A DNA stretch of 40,697 nt from Akkermansiaceae bacterium (GTDB taxonomy: Bacteria; Verrucomicrobiota; Verrucomicrobiia; Verrucomicrobiales; Akkermansiaceae), in assembly GCA_903930425.1 (NCBI GenBank), contig CAIYYV010000043.1, positions 1 through 40,697 of the forward strand, in the 5' to 3' direction. The position numbers and the translations under genes are program-made. A model generated the notes under the pieces. It did no database searches. It was not told the origin of the DNA and worked only from the letters and a program-made list of their open reading frames with translations. Below, one piece after another: positions 6,335 through 40,697 of the stretch. Position 1 is the first letter of the stretch. Each line of letters begins with the position of its first letter.

Positions 6335-7930
6335 ATGGCAAATTACCGTGTACTCGTCGCAGACCCGATTTCAGAAAAGGGCGTGGAGGCGCTCCGCAAT
6401 GCGGAAGGCATTTCCGTCGAGGTGAATACCGGCCTCAAACCGGATGCGCTCCTTCAAATCATCGGCGATTATCACGGCCTCGTGGTGCGATCTCAAACGA
6501 AGGTGACGCCCGATGTTTTTGCCGCAGCCAAAAATCTGAAAGTGATCGGCCGTGCCGGTGTGGGGGTGGACAATATCGATCGCACTGCCGCGACTGACCA
6601 CGGGGTCGTCGTGATGAACACCCCGAGCGGCAACACGATTTCCACGGCCGAACATGCTTTCACCTTGATGCTCGCACTGGCCCGGAACATCCCGCAGGCG
6701 CACGCTTCAATGATCGCCGGCAAGTGGGACCGCAAGTCGTTCGAGGGGGTCGAACTCCATGGCAAACGCCTCGCGATTCTCGGCATGGGCCGCATCGGCA
6801 CCGAGTTTGCGAAACGCGCCCAGGCATTCGGCATGTCCGTCACCGCCTATGATCCCTTCCTCACGGCGGCCCGCGCCCAGTCGCTGAAAGTCGACCTTGC
6901 CCAGAGCGCGGAGGAGGCGCTCACCGGTGCCGACGTCGTCACCCTGCACATCCCGCTCACTGCGGAAACCCGGCACCTCCTGAATGAGCCGCGGCTTCGC
7001 CTCATGAACCCAGGTGCCTTGGTCATCAACTGCGCCCGCGGCGGGCTGGTCGATGAAGCCGCCGCCAAGGAGTTGTTAGAATCAGGGCATCTCGCGGGAA
7101 TTGCGTTAGATGTATTTGAAACCGAGCCACCAGCTGCGGATTTCCCTTTGTTTTCCTGCAAAAAATGTGTGTTCACCCCGCACCTAGGCGCGTCGACTGC
7201 AGAAGCTCAGGAAAACGTCGGCATCGAAGTGGCCCAACAGGTGCGGGACTTCCTTGTCACCGGCGAAATCCGCAATGCCGTCAACATGCCGAATCTTGAC
7301 AGCCACACGCTGGAGAGTGTCGGGCCCTACCTCGACCTCGCCCACTCGCTGGGCAAGTTGCTTTCCAAGATTGCCCCCGCGCAGTGCGATGCCATCCGAG
7401 TTTCCTATCTCGGGCCGGTTTCCGAATTGGACACCGAACTCATCACTCGCATGACCCTCACGGGTTACTTGGCTGCCGCTCACAATGAATCGCAGGTCAA
7501 TCTCGTCAATGCCCCGGCGGTCGCCAAAACGCTCGGTCTAGCAGTTGCTGAGTCCACCGTGGCCCTGGCCACCAACTGCACCGAATTGATCGAGGTTTCC
7601 GCCGTCAAGGGCAATGAAGTCTGCACAGTCGCCGGAACCTTCTATGGCAAGACCGCCCGTATCGTGCATATCGCCGGCCACAACGTCGAAACCCACCCGC
7701 AGGGCCGCTTCCATTTTGTCGAAAATGACGACCGCCCGGGCCTCGTCGGCCAGATCGGCACGTCTCTCGGCAACGCCGCAATCAACATTGCCAACATGGC
7801 ACTCAGCCGCTCGAACGACCGCAGCCGTGCCGTCACCGTGATCGAAGTGGACACCGAACCGCCCACTCAATTGCTGGCCACCCTGCGGGCCACCCCCGGA
7901 ATTATCCGCGTGTTGAGCTTCGATCTGTGA
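6335..7930 (+). CDS. serA: D-3-phosphoglycerate dehydrogenase
   Basis: VIGRAGVGVDNID, LAILGMGRIGTEFAKRA, GIALDVFETEPP, C-terminal intervening and ACT domains; 531 aa long-form SerA. Confidence 0.97.
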   Translation: MANYRVLVADPISEKGVEALRNAEGISVEVNTGLKPDALLQIIGDYHGLVVRSQTKVTPDVFAAAKNLKVIGRAGVGVDNIDRTAATDHGVVVMNTPSGNTISTAEHAFTLMLALARNIPQAHASMIAGKWDRKSFEGVELHGKRLAILGMGRIGTEFAKRAQAFGMSVTAYDPFLTAARAQSLKVDLAQSAEEALTGADVVTLHIPLTAETRHLLNEPRLRLMNPGALVINCARGGLVDEAAAKELLESGHLAGIALDVFETEPPAADFPLFSCKKCVFTPHLGASTAEAQENVGIEVAQQVRDFLVTGEIRNAVNMPNLDSHTLESVGPYLDLAHSLGKLLSKIAPAQCDAIRVSYLGPVSELDTELITRMTLTGYLAAAHNESQVNLVNAPAVAKTLGLAVAESTVALATNCTELIEVSAVKGNEVCTVAGTFYGKTARIVHIAGHNVETHPQGRFHFVENDDRPGLVGQIGTSLGNAAINIANMALSRSNDRSRAVTVIEVDTEPPTQLLATLRATPGIIRVLSFDL

Positions 7931-8976: not shown

Positions 8977-10097
8977 CATCCGCCGATTTCTGGAACGACC
9001 GCGCGCCTGTCGCCGCAGCGGAATTCCCCGGAAAAATCCCCGCTGATCCAGAGCTGCGCGGGCATGTCCTCTTCGCCACCTCGGGCAGCGCGGACCATCC
9101 GCGGTGGATCGCCCTGTCCAAATCCGCGTTGCGGGAATCCGCAGCGGCAGTCAACCGCCATCTCACAGTCGGTCCCGACTCGTGCTGGGGTCTCGCGCTC
9201 CCGACGCAGCACGTCGGCGGCTTCGGCGTGGTGGCCCGCGCGGCGGCTGCGGATTGCGCGCTGCGTGAGTTCCGCGGTCGATGGAATGCGCCGGTCTTCG
9301 CGCAATGGCTGACCGATTATCAAGTGACGCACACCTCGCTCGTGCCCGCGCAGGTGTTTGATTTGGTCGCCTCGCAAGTCACGGCACCGGCCTCGCTCGT
9401 GGCCGTCGTTGTCGGGGGTGGCCACCTCGACGCACCGACTGGCCAAGCGGCGCGCGCCCTCGGTTGGCCGGTTCTCGCAAGTTATGGCATGACCGAGGCC
9501 GGCTCGCAAATTGCCACCCAGGGAATGGATTCGCTGGGCACTCTCTATCAGCCTGCCCCGCTCCCGTTGTTGCCGATCTGGCAGGCGGAAACCACCCCAG
9601 AGCAACTCCTCTGCATTGCCGGACCGGCCCTGTTTTCCGGATGGATGGTGAGCGAGGGGGCCGGGTGGGCCTTTCATCCGCGCCCCTCACCGTGGCATCC
9701 AACCCGCGACCGCGTCACCTTGTCAGAACGGCTTCTCACCCCGATCGGCCGCGCGGACACCCAGGTCAAGGTGCTCGGTGAACTCGTCGATTTGGAGTCG
9801 CTCGAACGCGAGCTGGCAGATCTGTCAGCTGGCAGGTTGACACCCGGTTCAATGGTGATCGTGGCCGTTCCGGACGCGCGCGCCGGGCATCTGTTAGTTC
9901 CGGTTTTCGCTGAATCCACGGATGCTTCGTCGGTCACCGAGGCCCTCATCCGCTATGCCGCAATCGCCCCGGGGTTCCGCCGCTTGCTGGCTCCCGTGCG
10001 GCTCGACTTCCTCCCTGTTAGCCCGTTAGGAAAACCGCGCCGCGCAGAAATCATGGCCGCGATACTGCCTCTCTTGGAAAATCATTCTTGCCGGTAA
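8958..10097 (+). CDS. menE: o-succinylbenzoate-CoA ligase (AMP-binding)
   Basis: LFATSGSADHPRWIALSKSAL, LASYGMTEAGSQIAT, VSPLGKPRRAEI; overlaps menC by 19 nt. Confidence 0.85.
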   Translation: MEATYLTSADFWNDRAPVAAAEFPGKIPADPELRGHVLFATSGSADHPRWIALSKSALRESAAAVNRHLTVGPDSCWGLALPTQHVGGFGVVARAAAADCALREFRGRWNAPVFAQWLTDYQVTHTSLVPAQVFDLVASQVTAPASLVAVVVGGGHLDAPTGQAARALGWPVLASYGMTEAGSQIATQGMDSLGTLYQPAPLPLLPIWQAETTPEQLLCIAGPALFSGWMVSEGAGWAFHPRPSPWHPTRDRVTLSERLLTPIGRADTQVKVLGELVDLESLERELADLSAGRLTPGSMVIVAVPDARAGHLLVPVFAESTDASSVTEALIRYAAIAPGFRRLLAPVRLDFLPVSPLGKPRRAEIMAAILPLLENHSCR

Positions 10098-10133
10098 TCC
10101 TGTTAGGCGCTGGGCGTGATTTCCACTTGGGGT

Positions 10134-11330
10134 TCAGATCACGCCGAGCGACTTACCGGTTTTGACGAATGCGTCGATCCCTTGGTCGAGTTGTTGGCGG
10201 GTGTGGGCGGCGCTGATCTGGGTGCGGATCCGCGCGGCTCCCTGCGGGACCACCGGATAGAAAAACCCGACGGCATAAACGCCGTGACCAAGCAGGGAGT
10301 CGGCAAATTTTTGGGAAAGCGCGGCATCACCTAACATCACGGGGGAAATCGGGTGATCCTTGCCGGCGATGGTGAACCCGGTCTGGGCCATGGCGCTGCG
10401 GAAGTAGTCGGTGTTGGACTTCACCCGATCGGCCAGTTCGGTGGAGGCCGTGAGCATCTCGAGGACCTTGAGCGAGGCGGCGACGATGGGCGGGGCGATG
10501 GTGTTAGAAAACAAGTAGGGTCTGGCACGTTGGCGGAGCAGTTCGATGACTGCCTTGTTGCCGGAGGTATATCCGCCGGACGCGCCGCCAAGCGCCTTGC
10601 CGAGGGTGCCGGTGGTGACATCGATTTTTCCGAACAACCCGCAGTGTTCGTGGGTGCCGCGTCCGCGAGCGCCGAGAAACCCGGTCGAGTGGCAATCGTC
10701 AAAATGCACCATGGCGTCGTATTTTGCGGCGAGTGCGTGGATGGAATCGAGTTGGGCGATGATGCCATCCATCGAGAACACGCCATCAGTGGTGATGAGT
10801 TTAAAGCGCGCGCCGGCGGCATCCGCCTGTTGGAGTTTGGCTTCCAGATCGGCCATGTCGTTGTTGGCATAACGAAAACGCTTGGCCTTGCAGAGCCGGA
10901 CGCCGTCGATAATCGACGCGTGGTTGAGTGAGTCGGAAATCACGGCGTCCTCGTCACCTAACAGCGTTTCGAAGAGGCCGCCATTGGCGTCGAAGCAAGA
11001 GGGAAACAAAATGGTGTCCTCGGTGCCGAGGAATTCCGAGAGGGCGGCCTCGAGTTGTTTGTGGAGGGATTGCGTGCCGCAAATGAAGCGCACGGAGGCC
11101 ATGCCAAATCCCCAGCGGGTGAGTGCGGCCTGGGCGGCGGCAACAACCTGTGGATGATCGGCAAGGCCGAGGTAATTGTTCGCGCAAAGGTTGATGACAG
11201 TGCGGCCGTCATTGAGGCGCACGGTGGCATTCTGGGATGAATCGATCAGCCGTTCACGTTTGTAAAGACCGGCGGATTCAATTTCCGTGAGCGTGGATCG
11301 AAGCGAGGCAAGCAGGAGGGGCGACATCAT
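10134..11330 (-). CDS. kbl: glycine C-acetyltransferase (2-amino-3-ketobutyrate CoA ligase)
   Basis: [21 protein letters not shown]-type region [58 protein letters not shown]. Confidence 0.95.
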
Positions 11331-11375
11331 GGCGGCACGATCATGCAGGATCGGCCGTGCTTTGGAATCGCGAAT

Positions 11376-11960
11376 TTAGGCGGGCGGCGCGGCAGACGGT
11401 GCCTCCGGGGCGAGGATGACCTGGGTTTTCGCCCATTCGTCACCGAGGCGGCGGCCGCGCTCGGGTTTGTCCTCACGGGTGAGCAGGACAATCCATTCGA
11501 TGAAGGCAAAGAAAGGAATCGCGAGCACGGCATTGCGGATGAGCGCCGGCTCCCAATTGCCAATCAATGATTTTCCCTCGAGCGTGACTACCCGGAGCTT
11601 CATCGCTTTTTTCCCGACGCTTTGGCCGTTCAAAAACGGCAGCGAATCCCGCGTGACCAAATAACCAAAACCCACGAGCCATGAAATATGCGACGCGAAA
11701 TGCGGTAAAATCTGCGCCACGACGATTTGCAGACCCACGGCCACAAGGGCGTCAATGAGAGCGGCCACAATCCGGGTGCCAAAGGGCGCAAGACTTCCGG
11801 CCTCACCCGCCACCGCATCCGGAACAACGGCAGTTTTCACCAGCACCACCGGGGGGGCCTGCGTGGAATCGAACGCCTCTTTCGAAGGCGGCAATGACGG
11901 CTGCGGCAAATCCGGACTGGGAATCACTGAGGGCACTGACGGGAGCGGTTGTTCATCCAT
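11376..11960 (-). CDS. RDD family membrane protein
   Basis: FGTRIVAALIDALVAVGLQIVVAQI, NGQSVGKKAMKLRVVTLEGKSL, WEPALIRNAVLAIPFFAFIEWIVLL. Confidence 0.8.
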   Translation of the reverse strand: MDEQPLPSVPSVIPSPDLPQPSLPPSKEAFDSTQAPPVVLVKTAVVPDAVAGEAGSLAPFGTRIVAALIDALVAVGLQIVVAQILPHFASHISWLVGFGYLVTRDSLPFLNGQSVGKKAMKLRVVTLEGKSLIGNWEPALIRNAVLAIPFFAFIEWIVLLTREDKPERGRRLGDEWAKTQVILAPEAPSAAPPA

Positions 11961-31874: not shown

Positions 31875-32123
31875 ATGACGACGATTGTGCAACTGGATGC
31901 GTCGAATCGGATCGTTCTTTCGCGCGATTTGCGCCGGGCGGCAGGGGTTCCCCACGGGCAAAAACTCAAAGCCTCGGCCACACCTGGTCGAATTGTGTTA
32001 GAGATCGAACCGGTTGCCAACGGCAAGGTGATCAAGCGCGGAAAACTCAAACTGTGGAGCGGCGAAGTGCCCGCCACGCCATTGGCGGAGGCCGTCGAAG
32101 CTTCACGACATTACGAGCGATGA
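31875..32123 (+). CDS. AbrB/MazE-type antitoxin
   Basis: TIVQLDASNRIVLSRDLRRAAGVPHGQKLKASATPGRIVLE swapped-hairpin pattern; stop overlaps the next start (ATGA). Confidence 0.8.
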   Translation: MTTIVQLDASNRIVLSRDLRRAAGVPHGQKLKASATPGRIVLEIEPVANGKVIKRGKLKLWSGEVPATPLAEAVEASRHYER

Positions 32124-32521
32124 CATTTCTGGACACGGGCATTCTGGTGGGAGCCTTGTTAGGGAAACACCCTGAACATGCTGCCTGCCGCGCGGCGCTG
32201 GAGGAATCCGAGGCACCCTTCACCGACGCCCACGCTCTGGCGGAAACATTTGCCACACTCACCGGCTTTTACAAAGTGCCGGTCGCTGCCGCCTCCGAAT
32301 TGACGTTAGCCCTCAAATCCATTCTGACTGTTGAGGCGTTGCCATTGGCGGATTATGAGAAAGCGATTGATGAAGCGCCGCGCCGCGGCGTGATGGGAGG
32401 CGGAATTTACGATTCGCTTCACGCAACCTTTGCCCGGCGCAAGGGTGCCAATCGCATCATCACGCGCAACCCATCCCACTTCGTCCACACCGCGCCCGAA
32501 CTGGAAATCCTCACTCCGTAG
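32120..32521 (+). CDS. PIN-domain toxin, VapC-like
   Basis: MTFLDTGILVGALLGKHPEHAACRAALEE, DAHALAETFATLTG, GGGIYDSLHATFARRKGANRIITRNPSHF. Confidence 0.9.
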   Translation: MTFLDTGILVGALLGKHPEHAACRAALEESEAPFTDAHALAETFATLTGFYKVPVAAASELTLALKSILTVEALPLADYEKAIDEAPRRGVMGGGIYDSLHATFARRKGANRIITRNPSHFVHTAPELEILTP

Positions 32522-32578: not shown

Positions 32579-34462
32579 TTACAGGGAGCACCTCGGCTTA
32601 TCGCCCGTGGCAACGAAATCGCAATGACCGGCTTCCAAGCGGAAACTGCGCCAGTATCTAACAGGCAAGCGGCTGAGCAGAATGAGCGCACCCTGGGCGA
32701 GGACGAACGCGACGAGCCAGGGAAACGCCTTGTCCATGAAGCCATAGGTGTGGAGGCCAACGCCTAACATGTTCACGCCAAACCATGAGAAGGAAGTGAT
32801 GGCATTGCCACAGATGGCCATGGCCATGAGGCCGCGTTGACGGACGAGTCCTCTCCAGCGGGAATGAAGGATGATGGCACACCACAAGACGATGAGCAGG
32901 GCCCCATTTTCCTTGGGGTCCCAACCCCAGAAGCGACCCCACGATTGGTCGGCCCAAATCCCGCCGAGCACGGTGCCGACAAAACTGAAGAGGGTGGCAA
33001 AACAGATGATGCCATAAACCATTCGGGTCAGCGTTTGGGCGGATTCCCGCGTGAGCAGGCGGGTGAACACTCCAAGGCAGACATAGATCACGGCCAGCAT
33101 GCCCGCCAAAAACATCGCGGAATAACCGGCAGTGATGACCACCACATGAGTCGCGAGCCAGAGATTGCTGTCGAGCACCGCGGTCATCATTTCGAGGGTG
33201 TCTCCGTTAGATCCGAGGTGGTGGGCAATGACGAGCGTGATGAATCCGACCATGCCGGCACAGGCCGCGCCGATCCCGTCGCGGAATAACCGCTCCAGCA
33301 CCAACCCTAACAGCACCGCGCCCCAACCGACGAAGATGGCCGACGAGTAGAGATTGGTGACAGGCGGGCGCCCTTGGAGATACATGCGCGAGAACATGCC
33401 AAAGGAATGGACGGCCAGCGCCAGCACGAGCAGCAAGAAGGCGGTTTTGCGCAGGCCTTTGGGGCACACGAGCCAGGACGCGCAGGCTAACAGAAATGCC
33501 CCGACATACAAAACCATGCTGTGATAGAACGGCTGCGACAAATTGAAACGCTGCTCGAATCCGGCACGACCGGCCAATTCCGGGTGCTGCTTGCCGATCC
33601 AATCCGCATAGGCATCGGCCTCACGGGCGAAGGACGCCGGGTTGCCGGCGCGCAACGCGTCGCCCATCCGGGCATACGCGCTCACCGAAACGGGAATGGA
33701 TGCGGGAGATTCCACGCGGAGCAGGGCGGTCCCGGTGCTGAGCCAAGCTGCGACACCGCCGCCTGCGGGAGGGGCAACGACAAGCATGTGGGCGAATTGG
33801 GCCAAGGATTCGTAGCGGGCGGCGGCGATGGCGAGCGGCGCACGTTGATCGTCGGTGAGCGTGGCGGCCCCTTGTTTCAAGGCGGTGCCCGCAGCGGCGA
33901 CCGCTTCGGCGTAAGACTGGATTTCCTTGGAAAAATCCTTGGTGTTTTCCGGGTGAATGCTGCCTTTGAGTTGTTGATAGAGCACCAGCGAGTTGCGCAG
34001 GTTATAGATAGCCGTATGGAAGGGAGTGCGTTTCGGGGCTTCAGTGTCCGCGGCGCGTTGCCCTTCCTCATCGATTTTTGTGAGGTAAGGTTGGAGTTCG
34101 GTATAAGAACAATAACGCTTGTTGGCCTGTGGCAGGCCAAACATTCCCAGCACATCCTGGTTGGCGATGGCAAAGACCGGATAGCCGTCCGCGATCGACG
34201 CTTGAAACAGCACATCGGCCAACCAGCGCGAGGCCTCCAAGGATTCGCCATTAGAAAGGCGCAGCGTCTGCTTGCCGCGCATGATGAGCAGCGAATTGCG
34301 GGCAACCGTGTCGAGCGGCTTGATGCGCCCTCCGGCCAGGACCGGCAGACGACTGAAGGATCGAACGTCAAAGCTGTCTGGCTTGAGTTTGGGGGCATGC
34401 CAGGACGCTGCGATCCAGAGGCATGCGGCTAACAGAACAAGGTAAGGGGCGAGGCGTTTCAT
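32579..34462 (-). CDS. ccsA: Cytochrome c biogenesis protein CcsA/ResC-like with large N-terminal domain
   Basis: Multiple TMs with WWD-type motif GGIWADQSWGRFWGWDPKENGAL; downstream of ResB with 4-nt overlap. Confidence 0.9.
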   Translation of the reverse strand: MKRLAPYLVLLAACLWIAASWHAPKLKPDSFDVRSFSRLPVLAGGRIKPLDTVARNSLLIMRGKQTLRLSNGESLEASRWLADVLFQASIADGYPVFAIANQDVLGMFGLPQANKRYCSYTELQPYLTKIDEEGQRAADTEAPKRTPFHTAIYNLRNSLVLYQQLKGSIHPENTKDFSKEIQSYAEAVAAAGTALKQGAATLTDDQRAPLAIAAARYESLAQFAHMLVVAPPAGGGVAAWLSTGTALLRVESPASIPVSVSAYARMGDALRAGNPASFAREADAYADWIGKQHPELAGRAGFEQRFNLSQPFYHSMVLYVGAFLLACASWLVCPKGLRKTAFLLLVLALAVHSFGMFSRMYLQGRPPVTNLYSSAIFVGWGAVLLGLVLERLFRDGIGAACAGMVGFITLVIAHHLGSNGDTLEMMTAVLDSNLWLATHVVVITAGYSAMFLAGMLAVIYVCLGVFTRLLTRESAQTLTRMVYGIICFATLFSFVGTVLGGIWADQSWGRFWGWDPKENGALLIVLWCAIILHSRWRGLVRQRGLMAMAICGNAITSFSWFGVNMLGVGLHTYGFMDKAFPWLVAFVLAQGALILLSRLPVRYWRSFRLEAGHCDFVATGDKPRCSL

Positions 34463-35628
34463 GGCGCGGTGGCGGGTTTGGCGCGGCGGGCAAAGCCGAC
34501 CAGGGTGAAGGTGAATTGGAACATCATGCCGAGAGACACGATCACACAGGCGACATAAGGCGCTTGATAACTGGGGTTGCGGACCACTTGCAGCACGGTG
34601 CCGCTGTTATCAGGCTCAAAGCCGGACTGATAGTAGGTATCGCCGAGATAACGGAACGGGTGATTCATATAAATCACCACCTGGCGGTGATCGTTGTTCA
34701 CATCATCATCCAAGATCACCTTGCTGGAGAAATCTTTTGGGATTTGAGTGCCGGGATACGTTTCGTGGGAAAAATCCTCCAGCATCAATCGATACGGTTT
34801 GTAATAACGGGCCGGCCTGAGCTCGAGGTTCCAATGGCGGCCGTTCAGATGCAATTCCTGAGCTTCGGCCATGACATCGGAAACGAGCCAGGTGCCAAGT
34901 GAGTCGCCCTTGCCTTCAGGAATGATTTCAAGCACGGCGCTCATCACGTCGCGCTCGTCCATCTTGGTGGCGCGCGGCTTCGATTGAACGGAGATGCGAG
35001 TGCCGGCACCTTGGGTGGCCGCCGGGACCGCAGAACCCGCATCCTGGCCGATCATGCTCAAGGTCGAGTTCCGATAGAATCCACGGACGACAATTTGAAA
35101 GGGCAGCGACTTCGGAGTAAGAGTGCCACCTTCAGCTAACAGATCGCCCGGCACGGCGGTGATCTGATCGCTTTCCTTGTCGGTGATTTCGGTCACGGCG
35201 AGTTCCATGCGGCTGCTGTCTTCCGAATAATTTTTGGAGGCCCCCTCTTTGATGCGCATGTAGGACGACACCGAGAATAAATCCGTGGCAAAGCCGCCGG
35301 CTAGCAGGACGATGATGCCGATGTGAATGAGCTGAATGCCGAGTTTCCGCCATGACACGGTGAATCGATGAATGAGAGAGGCGATCAAATTCACTAACAA
35401 AACCGCGCCGATGAGGTGACCGCCGGGAAAGACAGGGATTTTAAAGCTGCCAGATGTCGGAGACCACCAGATGAACGCACTTTGGAAGTATTGTTCCTGA
35501 ACAAAAAAAAGTCCCAGGCGCACCTGCGCGAGGGTGCCTGCAAACACCAACACGAAGGCTGCCGCGAGACAAATAACGGTGAGGCGCAATGAGGCAATGC
35601 TTCCTAACAATTGTTTGGGGGTGGTCAT
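34459..35628 (-). CDS. resB: Cytochrome c biogenesis protein ResB/Ccs1-like
   Basis: LGSIASLRLTVICLAAAFVLVFAGTLAQ, FPGGHLIGAVLLVNLIASLIHRF, QLIHIGIIVLLAGGFATDLF, YQSGFEPDNSGTVLQVVRNPS. Confidence 0.9.
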   Translation of the reverse strand: MTTPKQLLGSIASLRLTVICLAAAFVLVFAGTLAQVRLGLFFVQEQYFQSAFIWWSPTSGSFKIPVFPGGHLIGAVLLVNLIASLIHRFTVSWRKLGIQLIHIGIIVLLAGGFATDLFSVSSYMRIKEGASKNYSEDSSRMELAVTEITDKESDQITAVPGDLLAEGGTLTPKSLPFQIVVRGFYRNSTLSMIGQDAGSAVPAATQGAGTRISVQSKPRATKMDERDVMSAVLEIIPEGKGDSLGTWLVSDVMAEAQELHLNGRHWNLELRPARYYKPYRLMLEDFSHETYPGTQIPKDFSSKVILDDDVNNDHRQVVIYMNHPFRYLGDTYYQSGFEPDNSGTVLQVVRNPSYQAPYVACVIVSLGMMFQFTFTLVGFARRAKPATAP

Positions 35629-36827
35629 TTTTCAGGTTGGGTAAAACGAAGGGACTCGAGAAATGCGGTGAACTTTGCCTTTTCAGCAGTCAACAAGGCA
35701 TCCGGCCCGGTGAATTTGAAGAACCATGTGTCCGGGCCATGGCGGGTCCAAGCTGCAGCCACACGCAATTCTGCGCCCGTGGAATCGACAAAAGAAAGGG
35801 TTTTAGGACCGGCAGTGATCGGGGAAACAAGGGCTGCCAGACCGGACGACTCCACCGGGGCAAGGCCCACTTGCTGACGCCATCGGTTGACGTTGGCCAG
35901 ATCACCACCGACATCGCCGGGAAAGTGCGAAACCACGATTTTGGCATCCGTGCCGGCCATCGTGAAGGTGGCGTAAACCATGCCGCTTGTGGCAGGAACC
36001 AGCGTCCAGCCGGTGGGCACCTGCCAAGTGACGAGCGTCTCCGCAAGCACAGCGGGAAGCGTTACGGCAGCTGTCGCAGCGGGCGCGGCAGTGGGCGCGG
36101 CAGTGGGCGCGGCAGTGGGCGCGGCAGTGGGCGCGGCAGTGGGCGCGATGGGTTTCACGGTGGGAATCCACCGGATGAAGTTTTGTTTTTCGGCGGCTGC
36201 GAGAGCGGCGTTGCCGCGCATCTTGAAAAACCATGCCTCATTCTCGACATCCGCGATGACGCCCACTAGCCGACCGTCCTTGGTGGCGTCCGCGCCCGAG
36301 GGAAGCCCCTCGAGATCCACGAGGACGGCATCGCCCAATGCGGAAGGGATCTTTTGGGTCGCTTGTGAGAGCGCGGCCGCGTCGATGGGTGGCAGACCTA
36401 ACTGATCACGCCAACGATTGATGTTGGCAAGCGTGCCGCCGGGTGCCCGGCGCAGAATGGAAAAGGAAATATCCACGATGGCCGCGCCTTCTCCCAATAT
36501 CTGATAGCTGGCCAAACGCATCGGTGAAAGCGCTTGCTTTTTCCAATGGGCGGGTGGGGTGTCAGAGAACTGCGGCGTTCCGTTAGAAACACCACCCGCC
36601 AATTGTTCAGCGGTGAGGCCGGCATGGGGATCGGCAACTGAGCCACTGGTGTCTGGAGCGCCGGGCGTCATGCCCGGCATGCCGGCATGAGGATCGGCTG
36701 CCGGTGCCGCGGGTTGTGGAGCGGCTGCGGTTTCCTTCGCAACGGGATACGTTTGAATTTCGCGATTCTGCTTGCAGGCAGTCACCGAAAAAATGAGCCA
36801 TCCCAAACTGATAAATGAGGACTTCAT
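35625..36827 (-). CDS. Uncharacterised lipoprotein with two homologous domains joined by an APTA-repeat linker
   Basis: Lipobox-like SVTAC; LANINRWRDQLGLPPID...WFFKMRGNAALAAAEKQNF repeated as LANVNRWRQQVGLAPVE...WFFKFTGPDALLTAEKAKF; 4-nt overlap with resB. Confidence 0.8.
   Translation of the reverse strand: MKSSFISLGWLIFSVTACKQNREIQTYPVAKETAAAPQPAAPAADPHAGMPGMTPGAPDTSGSVADPHAGLTAEQLAGGVSNGTPQFSDTPPAHWKKQALSPMRLASYQILGEGAAIVDISFSILRRAPGGTLANINRWRDQLGLPPIDAAALSQATQKIPSALGDAVLVDLEGLPSGADATKDGRLVGVIADVENEAWFFKMRGNAALAAAEKQNFIRWIPTVKPIAPTAAPTAAPTAAPTAAPTAAPAATAAVTLPAVLAETLVTWQVPTGWTLVPATSGMVYATFTMAGTDAKIVVSHFPGDVGGDLANVNRWRQQVGLAPVESSGLAALVSPITAGPKTLSFVDSTGAELRVAAAWTRHGPDTWFFKFTGPDALLTAEKAKFTAFLESLRFTQPEK
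36081..36148. repeat. 12-bp tandem repeat GGGCGCGGCAGT, five full copies plus a partial one, coding (APTA)n on the minus strand
   Basis: Read directly. Confidence 0.95.
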
Positions 36828-36915: not shown

Positions 36916-38421
36916 TTACTCCTGCGTCTGGCCGGTATGGCACTCGTTGCAGGTGGGGTCGGAGTTTTCCGAATCAATGTGGAAAAACGGCAGTCCCTGC
37001 GGATTGACTTTCTCCAACTCTTTCCCGGCCCCCTGCGCCACAATGAGATGACAAGCATTGCAATCACTCCCCTTGATCGAACTCTTCCCGTCGGTGGCGA
37101 GGTGCTGGCCATCATGACAGCGGAAGCAACCGTTGCTGTCCTTGTGGCCAATGAGGTCAGGATGAATGCGCCAGTCAACCTTCATCTCCGGGAAAAAATT
37201 CGCTTTGTAGATCGCCTGGGTTTCCGCGACCATGGCCGTGACCCGCGCGTCATCCGGATATTCGGCGCGAAGAAAACGGTCAATTTTCACATTGGCTTCC
37301 TCGCGCGTGGCATACGGCTGAACGAGCGCCTTGACGACTTTCGCCTTGGCCCATGGGATCGCGGGATCGATGCGACGAAAGGCCAGCGATTGGTCCACAG
37401 CGGCATTCGGGGTCAGGTATTTGTGGGATGGGCGATTATGGCAATCCATGCAGTCCATGGTGCGAATCGGGTGCTTGGAAATATCATCCTTGAAATCCGC
37501 CGTGCGGTATTCGGTCTTCCTGCCGTTCGCATCCGTCACCCGCACCCAGGGAATGCTGAGACGGCTCTCATCCGTGGCGATGAACTCAATCTTGTTAGAC
37601 ACATTCATGTGCGAGTGGATGCCCTCGACCGGCCCGTGCACCGGATCACTGCCGCCCACCTTGAGCACCATCTGCACCGTGAACGGGGTGTTGGTTTCGT
37701 CAGAAAGGAAATGCCGGTAGGTTTTCTGCAGGTCGCCCGTGTGCTTTTGCGACCAATGGCACGATTGGCAGGTTTCCTGCGCCGGGCGCTGGTTCACGTT
37801 GTGCAGCCGGATCGGACGATTGAAATCACCGAGCACCGTGTGATAGAGCTGCCGCATCCCGCTGACCTTGGTCCGAATGTAATTGCCCGCCCCAGGGCCC
37901 ACATGACAGGCGACGCAGGCCACCTTGGCGTGGGCCGAATGCTGATAAGCTTTGAACTGAGGCTCCATCGACGTATGGCAAACCTCGCCGCAGAACGAGT
38001 TGGTTTCAGTGATGTGATACGTCCGATAACTGCCAAGTGCTGTTAGAAAGAGAAACCCGAGACTGCCGCCGACAAAGCCAACTAACAAACGCCGGTCGCG
38101 TTTGCGCGTCAAATTGACATGCAGCACAAAGCTGGAGGCGAGTTCGGGGTGGCCTTTGGGGATTCTGCGCGATTCAAGCACATAACCTAACAGCGCCATG
38201 GCGAGGCCCGTGAGCAGGAATAGGGGCGCAACGACATAGGCAAGGATCCCCATGTAGGGATTCGCGTGCGCGGCAAAGAGGTCGACCGAAAATAACAGGA
38301 AAAAGGCAAAGAACGCGGACACGGCTAGCACCAGTCCGGACAGACTGAGCCAGTTGCGCAGGCGACTGAGGCGGGTCGGCAACGGGGCGGGACGGGTGGC
38401 GGCAGGTATTTCTTCGCTCAT
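36916..38421 (-). CDS. NapC/NirT-family membrane multihaem cytochrome c (7 haem motifs, ImcH-like layout)
   Basis: Three hydrophobic N-terminal segments; one CX3CH (CGEVCHTSMEP) and six CXXCH (CVACH, CQSCH, CMDCH, CFRCH, CNACH, CNECH). Confidence 0.9.
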   Translation of the reverse strand: MSEEIPAATRPAPLPTRLSRLRNWLSLSGLVLAVSAFFAFFLLFSVDLFAAHANPYMGILAYVVAPLFLLTGLAMALLGYVLESRRIPKGHPELASSFVLHVNLTRKRDRRLLVGFVGGSLGFLFLTALGSYRTYHITETNSFCGEVCHTSMEPQFKAYQHSAHAKVACVACHVGPGAGNYIRTKVSGMRQLYHTVLGDFNRPIRLHNVNQRPAQETCQSCHWSQKHTGDLQKTYRHFLSDETNTPFTVQMVLKVGGSDPVHGPVEGIHSHMNVSNKIEFIATDESRLSIPWVRVTDANGRKTEYRTADFKDDISKHPIRTMDCMDCHNRPSHKYLTPNAAVDQSLAFRRIDPAIPWAKAKVVKALVQPYATREEANVKIDRFLRAEYPDDARVTAMVAETQAIYKANFFPEMKVDWRIHPDLIGHKDSNGCFRCHDGQHLATDGKSSIKGSDCNACHLIVAQGAGKELEKVNPQGLPFFHIDSENSDPTCNECHTGQTQE

Positions 38422-38482
38422 GGCAGATATAAGGGGTTTTTGTTAGAAAGCCTTTGCAAGGCGCTGTGTCCTAGAGCAAGAA

Positions 38483-38510
38483 AGCGGGGCCTCGTCTCCG
38501 AGACCCCGCT
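38483..38510 (-). terminator. Strong hairpin between the small cytochrome gene and the multihaem gene
   Basis: AGCGGGGCCTCGTCTCCGAGACCCCGCT is almost fully self-complementary; the following minus-strand tail TTCTTGCTC is only weakly T-rich. Confidence 0.5.
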
Positions 38511-38585
38511 GGGTGAGGAAAACTGGCTGCGAGCCACTTGCAGGAAGCGGAGGCTGAAATCCACAGCGGCTCGCTGGGTAAGGAA

Positions 38586-38897
38586 TTATTTCTTGAAGGC
38601 GCGGACGTATTTGACTTGTGCCGCCGCTTCTTCAGCCGTGATTTTATCCTTGTAGCCTTTCATCTTTTCCTTGCCTTCAAGGATCACCTTGAGGGCTTCG
38701 GCATCGGTGAACTCGGCCTGCGCCTTGGCATCCGTGTAATCTTTCACCTTGTTTTTCTTGCCCATGACTGTGTTGCCGGTGCCGTCCTTGGCATGGCATG
38801 AAGCACAGTTCTTGGCATACACTTCAGCAGCATCGCCGAAGGCCAACGGGGCGGCCAACAGGAGCGCGATCGAGACAAATGACATTTTCATTTTCAT
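38586..38897 (-). CDS. Small periplasmic c-type cytochrome (single haem)
   Basis: Signal peptide MKMKMSFVSIALLLAAPLAFG; AEVYAKNCASCHAKDGTGNTVMGKK; MKGYKDKITAEEAAAQVKYVRAF. Confidence 0.93.
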   Translation of the reverse strand: MKMKMSFVSIALLLAAPLAFGDAAEVYAKNCASCHAKDGTGNTVMGKKNKVKDYTDAKAQAEFTDAEALKVILEGKEKMKGYKDKITAEEAAAQVKYVRAFKK

Positions 38898-38951
38898 GGT
38901 GGTGGGGATGGGGGTTGATTTGCAGAAAAACTGCCACAAGGATTTGCCAGA

Positions 38952-40697
38952 TCAGAAACGGATTTGCAAGCCCGTTGAGATCATGTGCGCCTCGAAGTCA
39001 TTGTAGCCGCCGGTTTGGTCCGGGTTGTCGGTGTTGCTGCTCATGTATGCATAGCGCAAGTTCCAGACCATGTTGGGGGTGATCATGCGCCTAAGGGTCA
39101 AACTGGCAGTATACTCGTCGGTGTTCATGCCGTAGCCAACGCCACCGGCTCTCGGAATGGCACTGTAATTATTGGCACCGTAATAGGTGAAGCAGCCGGT
39201 AAGATCGGTTTTGTCGTCAATCGCGTAGCCGGCGGTCAAACTGCCGGTAAAGTAGTCATTCTCCGAGTCGGCAATACTCTCCGGGCCGTAAAGATCGGCC
39301 GGGGTGTCGGTTTCAGCAATCACATAACTCGCACTGGCTTGAACATAGGCCCGGTTGCATGGCATCCATGTCACACTCTCACTCAAGATATGGCTGGTGA
39401 TTTCGGCGCTGTCGATCTCTTGGGTGATTGGAGTCACGACTGGCGTTCCAGGGGTAAATTGCAAGGCCTGATTCTCGACGGTCGTCTTTTGGTAATCATA
39501 ACGAGTGACGAGGGTGAGATTGGGTAAAGCACGCCATGTCAGGCGGACATTCATGTCATCCGTGCTGAAGTCGTTGCTCTTCAACTGGCCGTCGAAAGCA
39601 TTCGATGCGGCAGGCGCATAGCTATTATCGTAGTCTTGGTTGTAGTCGCGATGGTAATATTGAGTGGACAGGCTGAGTCCCTGCATGGGATACCAATTGG
39701 CACCCATCACGTATTTTTCCTGCGTGATATCCGAGGCCTGCACACGAATACTGCCGTCACTGACGCCGAGGAGCGTGTAGGTTCCGTCGTCCTGAGTGAA
39801 CTCGGCTTTAGAATAGAGCACTAGGTTTTCCAATCCGGTGTAACGCACTTCGATCTGCTCGGCCAAATGGTCAATACTGGTATCATTGGAATTCACTGCA
39901 TGTGTATCCATGTCGCTATTCTCCCATGAGGCGCTGAACGATGGGACTATCACCAAGGAGTCGATTGGATTCCACCAGAAGTTGGCATTGGCCGAGTGAA
40001 TGGAAGTCTGACCACCGCCTAAATATTGGGTCGTGGTATCAGCGGGTGCGTTCGTGACGGTCCTGTTGGAGCTGCCGTCGATTTCGGTATCCATCGAAGT
40101 GTAGGAATACGCGAAGCTCAGGAGCATCCGTTCGCTGAGATTGGTTTGGCTGAAGATGTGCGCATTGAACAAATCGGCATCATATGCACTGTTTTCGGTG
40201 TAGGTGCGAGAACTGACAGGGAGGGCGCGATCAGGATCACGGCGTATGGTCAGGGAATCATCATTGCGCACGGATTCATAGATCAGCCCCAAGCCGAGAT
40301 CGGTGTTGCCCAGAGTGTGCGTGATATCGAGGTTGAAGGTGTCACGCTGCTCGTCAATGGCATTGAGCGTCGGGACGATTTCATAGCGAGAAGCACCAAT
40401 GGTATATCCACCCCACAGGGTGGAATCCTTGTTGCCCTCGCGCCAACCGTGGGTGTAACGGAAGGTGATTTCCGGGAGTTTTTCCATGCGCAGACCGGCT
40501 TCAAAATAAAGCTCCCCGCGGTCGAGGGACAGTTCGTCGTTCCCATCGAGCGGAATCCAAGCGGCGGGCGTGCCCGGCAGGTAGCCGCCGGAGCCATCAT
40601 ACCACGTGCGATATTCCTTGTAGCCGGCCTTGACGTAGCCGACATCGGCTTTGGTGAGGTTGAGATTGAACTCGTAGTCTTCCATGCCAGGTAAGGC
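38952..40697 (-). CDS. MtrB/PioB-like (GSU2204-like) outer-membrane beta-barrel; 5' end lies beyond the window
   Basis: Alternating amphipathic strands with Tyr/Trp/Thr richness, C-terminal IRF ending (MISTGLQIRF); frame stays open past 40685 (ALPGMEDYEFNL). Confidence 0.7.
   Translation of the reverse strand, partial: ALPGMEDYEFNLNLTKADVGYVKAGYKEYRTWYDGSGGYLPGTPAAWIPLDGNDELSLDRGELYFEAGLRMEKLPEITFRYTHGWREGNKDSTLWGGYTIGASRYEIVPTLNAIDEQRDTFNLDITHTLGNTDLGLGLIYESVRNDDSLTIRRDPDRALPVSSRTYTENSAYDADLFNAHIFSQTNLSERMLLSFAYSYTSMDTEIDGSSNRTVTNAPADTTTQYLGGGQTSIHSANANFWWNPIDSLVIVPSFSASWENSDMDTHAVNSNDTSIDHLAEQIEVRYTGLENLVLYSKAEFTQDDGTYTLLGVSDGSIRVQASDITQEKYVMGANWYPMQGLSLSTQYYHRDYNQDYDNSYAPAASNAFDGQLKSNDFSTDDMNVRLTWRALPNLTLVTRYDYQKTTVENQALQFTPGTPVVTPITQEIDSAEITSHILSESVTWMPCNRAYVQASASYVIAETDTPADLYGPESIADSENDYFTGSLTAGYAIDDKTDLTGCFTYYGANNYSAIPRAGGVGYGMNTDEYTASLTLRRMITPNMVWNLRYAYMSSNTDNPDQTGGYNDFEAHMISTGLQIRF

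Follow-up and report, generated by a model that had tools for sequence, protein, structure and literature searches.

In MtrAB, the haem chain is insulated by a surrounding barrel, as in the Mtr complex of Shewanella baltica (PDB ID: 6R2Q; PMC7198977). ImcH oxidises menaquinol and hands the electrons to periplasmic cytochromes (PMC12307469). Its published architecture comprises three N-terminal transmembrane helices, a CX3CH motif next to the third helix and six CX2CH motifs in a protein of about 495–519 residues, and its homologues have so far been tied only to quinol oxidation and outward electron flow, in Fe(III) reducers (PMC6295460). In the same 2018 survey, mtrAB or mtoAB was never found adjoining imcH. 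A 2026 karst study describes ImcH- or NapC/NirT-like genes beside decahaem porin-cytochrome clusters (PMC13264449). For Verrucomicrobia, He et al. (2017) reported porins with at least 20 strands next to cytochromes with eight haem sites and proposed humic substances as the acceptor; systems homologous to those of Shewanella and Geobacter were stated to be absent (PMC5615132). Systems of this kind are thus familiar from iron-reducing bacteria and have been suspected before in Verrucomicrobiota. New in the present locus are a complete operon in Verrucomicrobiota that includes a quinol oxidase, an MtrAB homology and a tight co-occurrence of the genes.

The window analysed is the whole of contig C43 (40,697 bases) from a genome bin of 452 contigs and 3.5 Mb. 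Since the ImcH-like loci closest to its own carry annotations as Akkermansiaceae or Verrucomicrobia MAGs, the host is placed as an uncultured Verrucomicrobiota bacterium of that kind, from lake or soil. As the initial annotation had described, a barrel-like ORF, a monohaem cytochrome and a seven-haem protein are all present on the minus strand at the contig end. The locus reaches past positions 36916–40697, with the genes for p400, ResB and CcsB (32579–36827) on one side and a second contig, C419, on the other. The seven-haem protein (36916–38421, minus strand, 501 aa; PF03264, 5.2e-10) contains the three hydrophobic segments (residues 30–48, 59–77 and 112–130) and the seven haem motifs originally noted, with the added detail that one motif is CX3CH (CGEVCH) and the other six are CXXCH. 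These motifs are not a product of chance: two or more CXXCH motifs were found in merely 4 of 20,000 shuffles of the protein, and all seven sites are invariant among 18 relatives. The N-terminal half resembles NrfH. Every published architectural feature of ImcH (PMC6295460) is present, in agreement with the earlier assignment to the ImcH type, and by analogy the protein is most likely an ImcH-like menaquinol oxidase of the inner membrane.

The small monohaem cytochrome c lies in the ORF at 38586–38939 (minus strand), with the ATG at 38897 as its likely start (38586–38897, 103 aa; PF13442, 4.6e-11). Its sequence includes a hydrophobic signal segment and a single CASCH motif, and the gene is found near the seven-haem gene in most relatives. 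Downstream of the seven-haem gene, the minus strand encodes p400 (35625–36827) and two system II cytochrome c maturation proteins, one ResB-like (34459–35628; PF05140, 1.7e-17) and one CcsB/CcsA-like (32579–34462; PF01578, 5.2e-25; TIGR03144, 1.4e-37). Because p400, ResB and CcsB share the same strand, with four-base overlaps between p400 and ResB and between ResB and CcsB, the operon very probably extends to 32579. The N-terminus of the lipoprotein-like p400 resembles a lipobox, and the protein carries an uncharacterised domain (N.NRWR.Q.GL.P....W.FFK..G) twice as well as a linker of tandem Ala-Pro-Thr repeats, (APT)n; its gene is kept beside resB/ccsB in relatives and, in those from the Akkermansiaceae, between the seven-haem gene and resB. 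Downstream of the operon, a plus-strand ORF at 32054–32521 looks by eye like a PIN-domain protein and is possibly the lone toxin of a toxin-antitoxin pair.

The barrel ORF (38952–40697, minus strand) is open at the contig end and encodes a C-terminal portion of 581 residues that ends in GLQIRF. Modelled from a full-length relative, the barrel has 26 strands and no plug (pLDDT 79.5). Compared with all PDB chains, this model is most similar to MtrB (6r2q_B; E = 4.3e-17, TM-scores of 0.52/0.57), followed by TonB-type receptors at ~1e-10, about six orders of magnitude worse. Based on this gap, the plug-less 26-strand architecture and the lack of any Pfam TonB or plug match, a TonB-type receptor was ruled out. 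The Pfam model MtrB_PioB (PF11854) matched none of 33 barrels and had no match anywhere in the genome, and membership of that Pfam family was rejected; the barrel profile, searched against PDB sequences, returned chance matches only. NF041027, a model of GSU2204 described as MtrB/PioB-family in a 2026 review (PMC13188914), is matched by 11 of the 33 barrel relatives (best 2.7e-9), with no match for the fragment in the window at E values up to 1. The original description of the barrel as MtrB/PioB-like is thus upheld by the fold, with a sequence that falls below the Pfam family. A moderate TM-score and a large rmsd limit the claim: judged from the model, the barrel shares the fold class of MtrB and is likely homologous to it, and close similarity is not claimed.

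The initial annotation also placed a porin-resident multihaem cytochrome beyond position 40697. Such a gene was found on contig C419 (7,937 bases), where a search of this genome with a relative's octahaem protein matched a single copy at 6752–7600, with 75% identity to the query. C419 terminates 322 bases past the octahaem ORF, inside an ORF, MKPIHSS...GGIDTFQLSKALN, that corresponds to the barrel N-terminus (L108:7621-7937). The porin gene, with its ATG at 7648, therefore adjoins the periplasmic multihaem gene, whose ORF ends at 7615, and the octahaem gene occupies the same position in 30 relatives. Barrel relatives read on as ...SKAVNDSTTLTLDGHALPGLEDYEFN, and the fragment in the window opens with ALPGMEDYEFN; from this alignment, about 10 barrel residues appear to be lost between C419 and C43. 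Because the genome is fragmented, we infer the join of the two contigs from homology; the barrel and octahaem searches each led to one place in the genome. At the upstream end of the operon on C419, a recG-like gene is present and no extracellular multihaem cytochrome gene was found.

The count of CXXCH motifs in these flanking genes gave seven, along with one CX4CH, for the octahaem protein. All eight sites are conserved in a profile alignment of 30 proteins, and the last is CX4CH in every aligned member except that of locus L042, where it is CXXCH. A comparison of this profile with MtrA (6r2q_A) gave an E value of 1.4e-45, with homology along the haem chain. The DmsE-family model TIGR03508 is matched by all 30 octahaem proteins; the C419 protein (1.9e-50) misses its curated cut-off (171.8 versus 192.2 bits) and has eight haem sites, not ten. 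The best-scoring named model is that of the GSU2203 family (NF041028, 1.8e-54), again below the curated cut-off. On this profile evidence, the octahaem protein is a shortened MtrA/DmsE-family cytochrome. In all 30 aligned proteins, including that of the present genome (L108:6752-7612), an invariant Cys41 follows a hydrophobic segment. This residue resembles a lipoprotein signal and suggests a lipid anchor, unlike MtrA. The AlphaFold model of the octahaem protein had a pLDDT of 45.7 and was left out of the fold searches.

When GTDB genomes were scanned with the seven-haem protein, more than 570 relatives emerged, and 79 loci were retained. Octahaem and barrel genes were called in these loci with profiles over all ORFs, as long antisense ORFs overlie some barrel genes. 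Of the 79 loci, 30 have both genes no more than 9 kb from the ImcH-like gene and on its strand, and 35 have at least one of them there; in one further locus (L057), both lie on the strand opposite the ImcH-like gene. The gene order within the genus is octahaem, barrel, monohaem cytochrome and ImcH-like gene, often followed by p400, ResB and CcsB. Among 99 related genomes, 17 encode both the barrel and the ImcH-like protein, none the barrel only, one the ImcH-like protein only and 81 neither (Fisher's exact test, 3e-18, and 3e-14 within the genus; these values overstate the evidence and are indicative only, because related genomes share ancestry). The sole ImcH-only genome, G016, contains a divergent octahaem gene and may have a variant of the type seen in L042. 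In that cluster (L042:6484-9474), an octahaem protein with eight regular CXXCH motifs and a barrel with only about 21% identity are encoded in the same place, ahead of the cytochrome and the ImcH-like gene.

Other multihaem proteins are encoded around the ImcH-like genes. Alongside the ImcH-like gene, 30 of the 79 loci encode proteins with 9 or 11 haems and multiple hydrophobic segments at the C-terminus, and in many relatives an 11-haem gene directly follows the ImcH-like gene. On another contig of the present genome (G000:C442 = L115:7315-9471(-), 9766-11454(+)), two cytochromes of CbcL/MtrH architecture are encoded, with 11 and 9 CXXCH motifs and a C-terminal cytochrome b561 domain (PF01292); their genes adjoin those for a formate-tetrahydrofolate ligase and a pterin-binding methyltransferase. 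In several relatives (L047:122-1909, L051:2-1708, L062:4440-6176 and others), the octahaem gene is preceded by one for a 9-haem protein of ~580 residues with no C-terminal membrane helices. It is possibly an extracellular partner missing from the present genome; a search of the genome for the 9-haem cytochrome gave no match.

Taken together, gene content, protein families, fold, conserved order and co-occurrence support, at the level of sequence, the earlier reading of the locus as a conduit from the inner to the outer membrane. We consider it probable that the product of the locus is a porin-cytochrome conduit equipped with a dedicated quinol oxidase in the inner membrane and directed outward to an extracellular acceptor. 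In the proposed path, the ImcH-like protein would oxidise menaquinol and, via its periplasmic haems, reduce the small monohaem cytochrome c, which would deliver the electrons to the MtrA-family octahaem protein seated within the 26-strand barrel. The octahaem chain would then span the outer membrane and reduce an acceptor outside the cell, with humic quinones or Fe(III) as likely candidates. Haem attachment would fall to ResB and CcsB, whose downstream genes are probably co-transcribed. Since haem-copper oxidase genes were also found in the genome, the conduit would be a facultative route.

The formation of the octahaem-barrel complex, the flow of electrons through it, the direction and the acceptor are all predictions, and direction is not readable from sequence. 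Flow could be inward: as has been proposed for PioAB and MtoAB, the octahaem-barrel pair would draw electrons from a donor outside the cell, Fe(II) or some other, and the seven-haem protein would reduce the quinone pool or feed an oxidase. An operon with no extracellular cytochrome, like those of PioAB and MtoAB, and the haem-copper oxidase genes fit this direction. It is nevertheless unlikely, given that the only role so far linked to ImcH homologues is quinol oxidation by Fe(III) reducers (PMC6295460) and that the genome also encodes the two CbcL-architecture cytochromes, the partner type found beside ImcH in Geobacter.

Several points speak against the outward conduit: the upstream end of the operon has no extracellular multihaem cytochrome gene, the barrel misses the Pfam MtrB_PioB model, and many of the phylum's ImcH-like genes lack a conduit inside the flanks examined, with 44 of the 79 loci having none on the same strand. 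Together with the NrfH-like N-terminal half, this last result would agree with a seven-haem protein that serves a periplasmic reductase or the general periplasmic cytochrome pool and whose conduit neighbourhood is incidental. Such a role is quite improbable here, as co-occurrence and order with the barrel are conserved in the genus, 23 of the 44 conduit-less loci carry instead a CbcL-like cytochrome, itself a quinone enzyme of the extracellular electron transfer (EET) type, and contig ends truncate several more. In a further alternative, a DmsEF-like conduit would supply a dedicated extracellular reductase, for example a DMSO reductase, rather than minerals or humics. This would account for the TIGR03508 match but is highly improbable, because that match is under the curated cut-off and no reductase gene flanks the octahaem gene on C419 or the barrel operon within the window.

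With the outward conduit as the preferred reading, the porin-cytochrome hypothesis of 2017 becomes a complete predicted path from quinone to the outside in one operon, with an MtrAB homology formerly thought absent in Verrucomicrobia. The locus is also a counter-example to the 2018 survey, which found no mtrAB next to imcH (PMC6295460). The ImcH-octahaem-barrel set would provide a simple marker of extracellular respiration in a phylum that is common in lakes and soils, and would bear on the cycling of humics and iron and on the diversion of carbon from methane. More tentatively, both EET quinol oxidase types, ImcH-like and CbcL-like, might be wired across the phylum to one lipid-anchored octahaem-in-barrel conduit with a haem chain shorter than that of MtrA, which would make extracellular respirers of many freshwater and soil Verrucomicrobiota that are regarded as fermentative or aerobic; we regard this extension as possible but doubtful.

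Relative to known systems, the freshwater clusters of He et al. (2017) share the phylum and, as far as the descriptions can be likened, the pairing of a porin with a periplasmic eight-haem cytochrome; some of them include an additional extracellular multihaem cytochrome. In contrast to those clusters, in which the inner-membrane step is unnamed, the operon described here contains an ImcH-like gene, and its octahaem protein and barrel are linked to MtrA by homology and to MtrB by fold. The ImcH of Geobacter shares with the seven-haem protein a length of ~500 residues, three N-terminal transmembrane helices, a CX3CH at the third helix, six CX2CH motifs and a NapC/NirT-like part, a likeness drawn from the published architecture, whereas the gene here adjoins an MtrAB-like pair. 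For GSU2203-GSU2204 of Geobacter sulfurreducens (NF041028, NF041027), the GSU2203 family is decahaem, and the present octahaem protein scores below the NF041028 cut-off. The Group 2 clusters of the karst genomes (PMC13264449) combine a porin, a cytochrome of MtrA size and an ImcH- or NapC/NirT-like gene; their cytochromes are decahaem, and the section of that study consulted names no Verrucomicrobiota among the porin-cytochrome carriers. Finally, MtrAB(C) of Shewanella (6R2Q, PMC7198977), as well as PioAB, MtoAB and DmsEF, share an MtrA-family cytochrome paired with a large barrel, and MtrB is the best fold match. The present system differs from MtrAB(C) in having eight haems rather than ten, a last motif that is usually CX4CH, a lipobox-like Cys41, no MtrC and a barrel with no match to the MtrB_PioB model.
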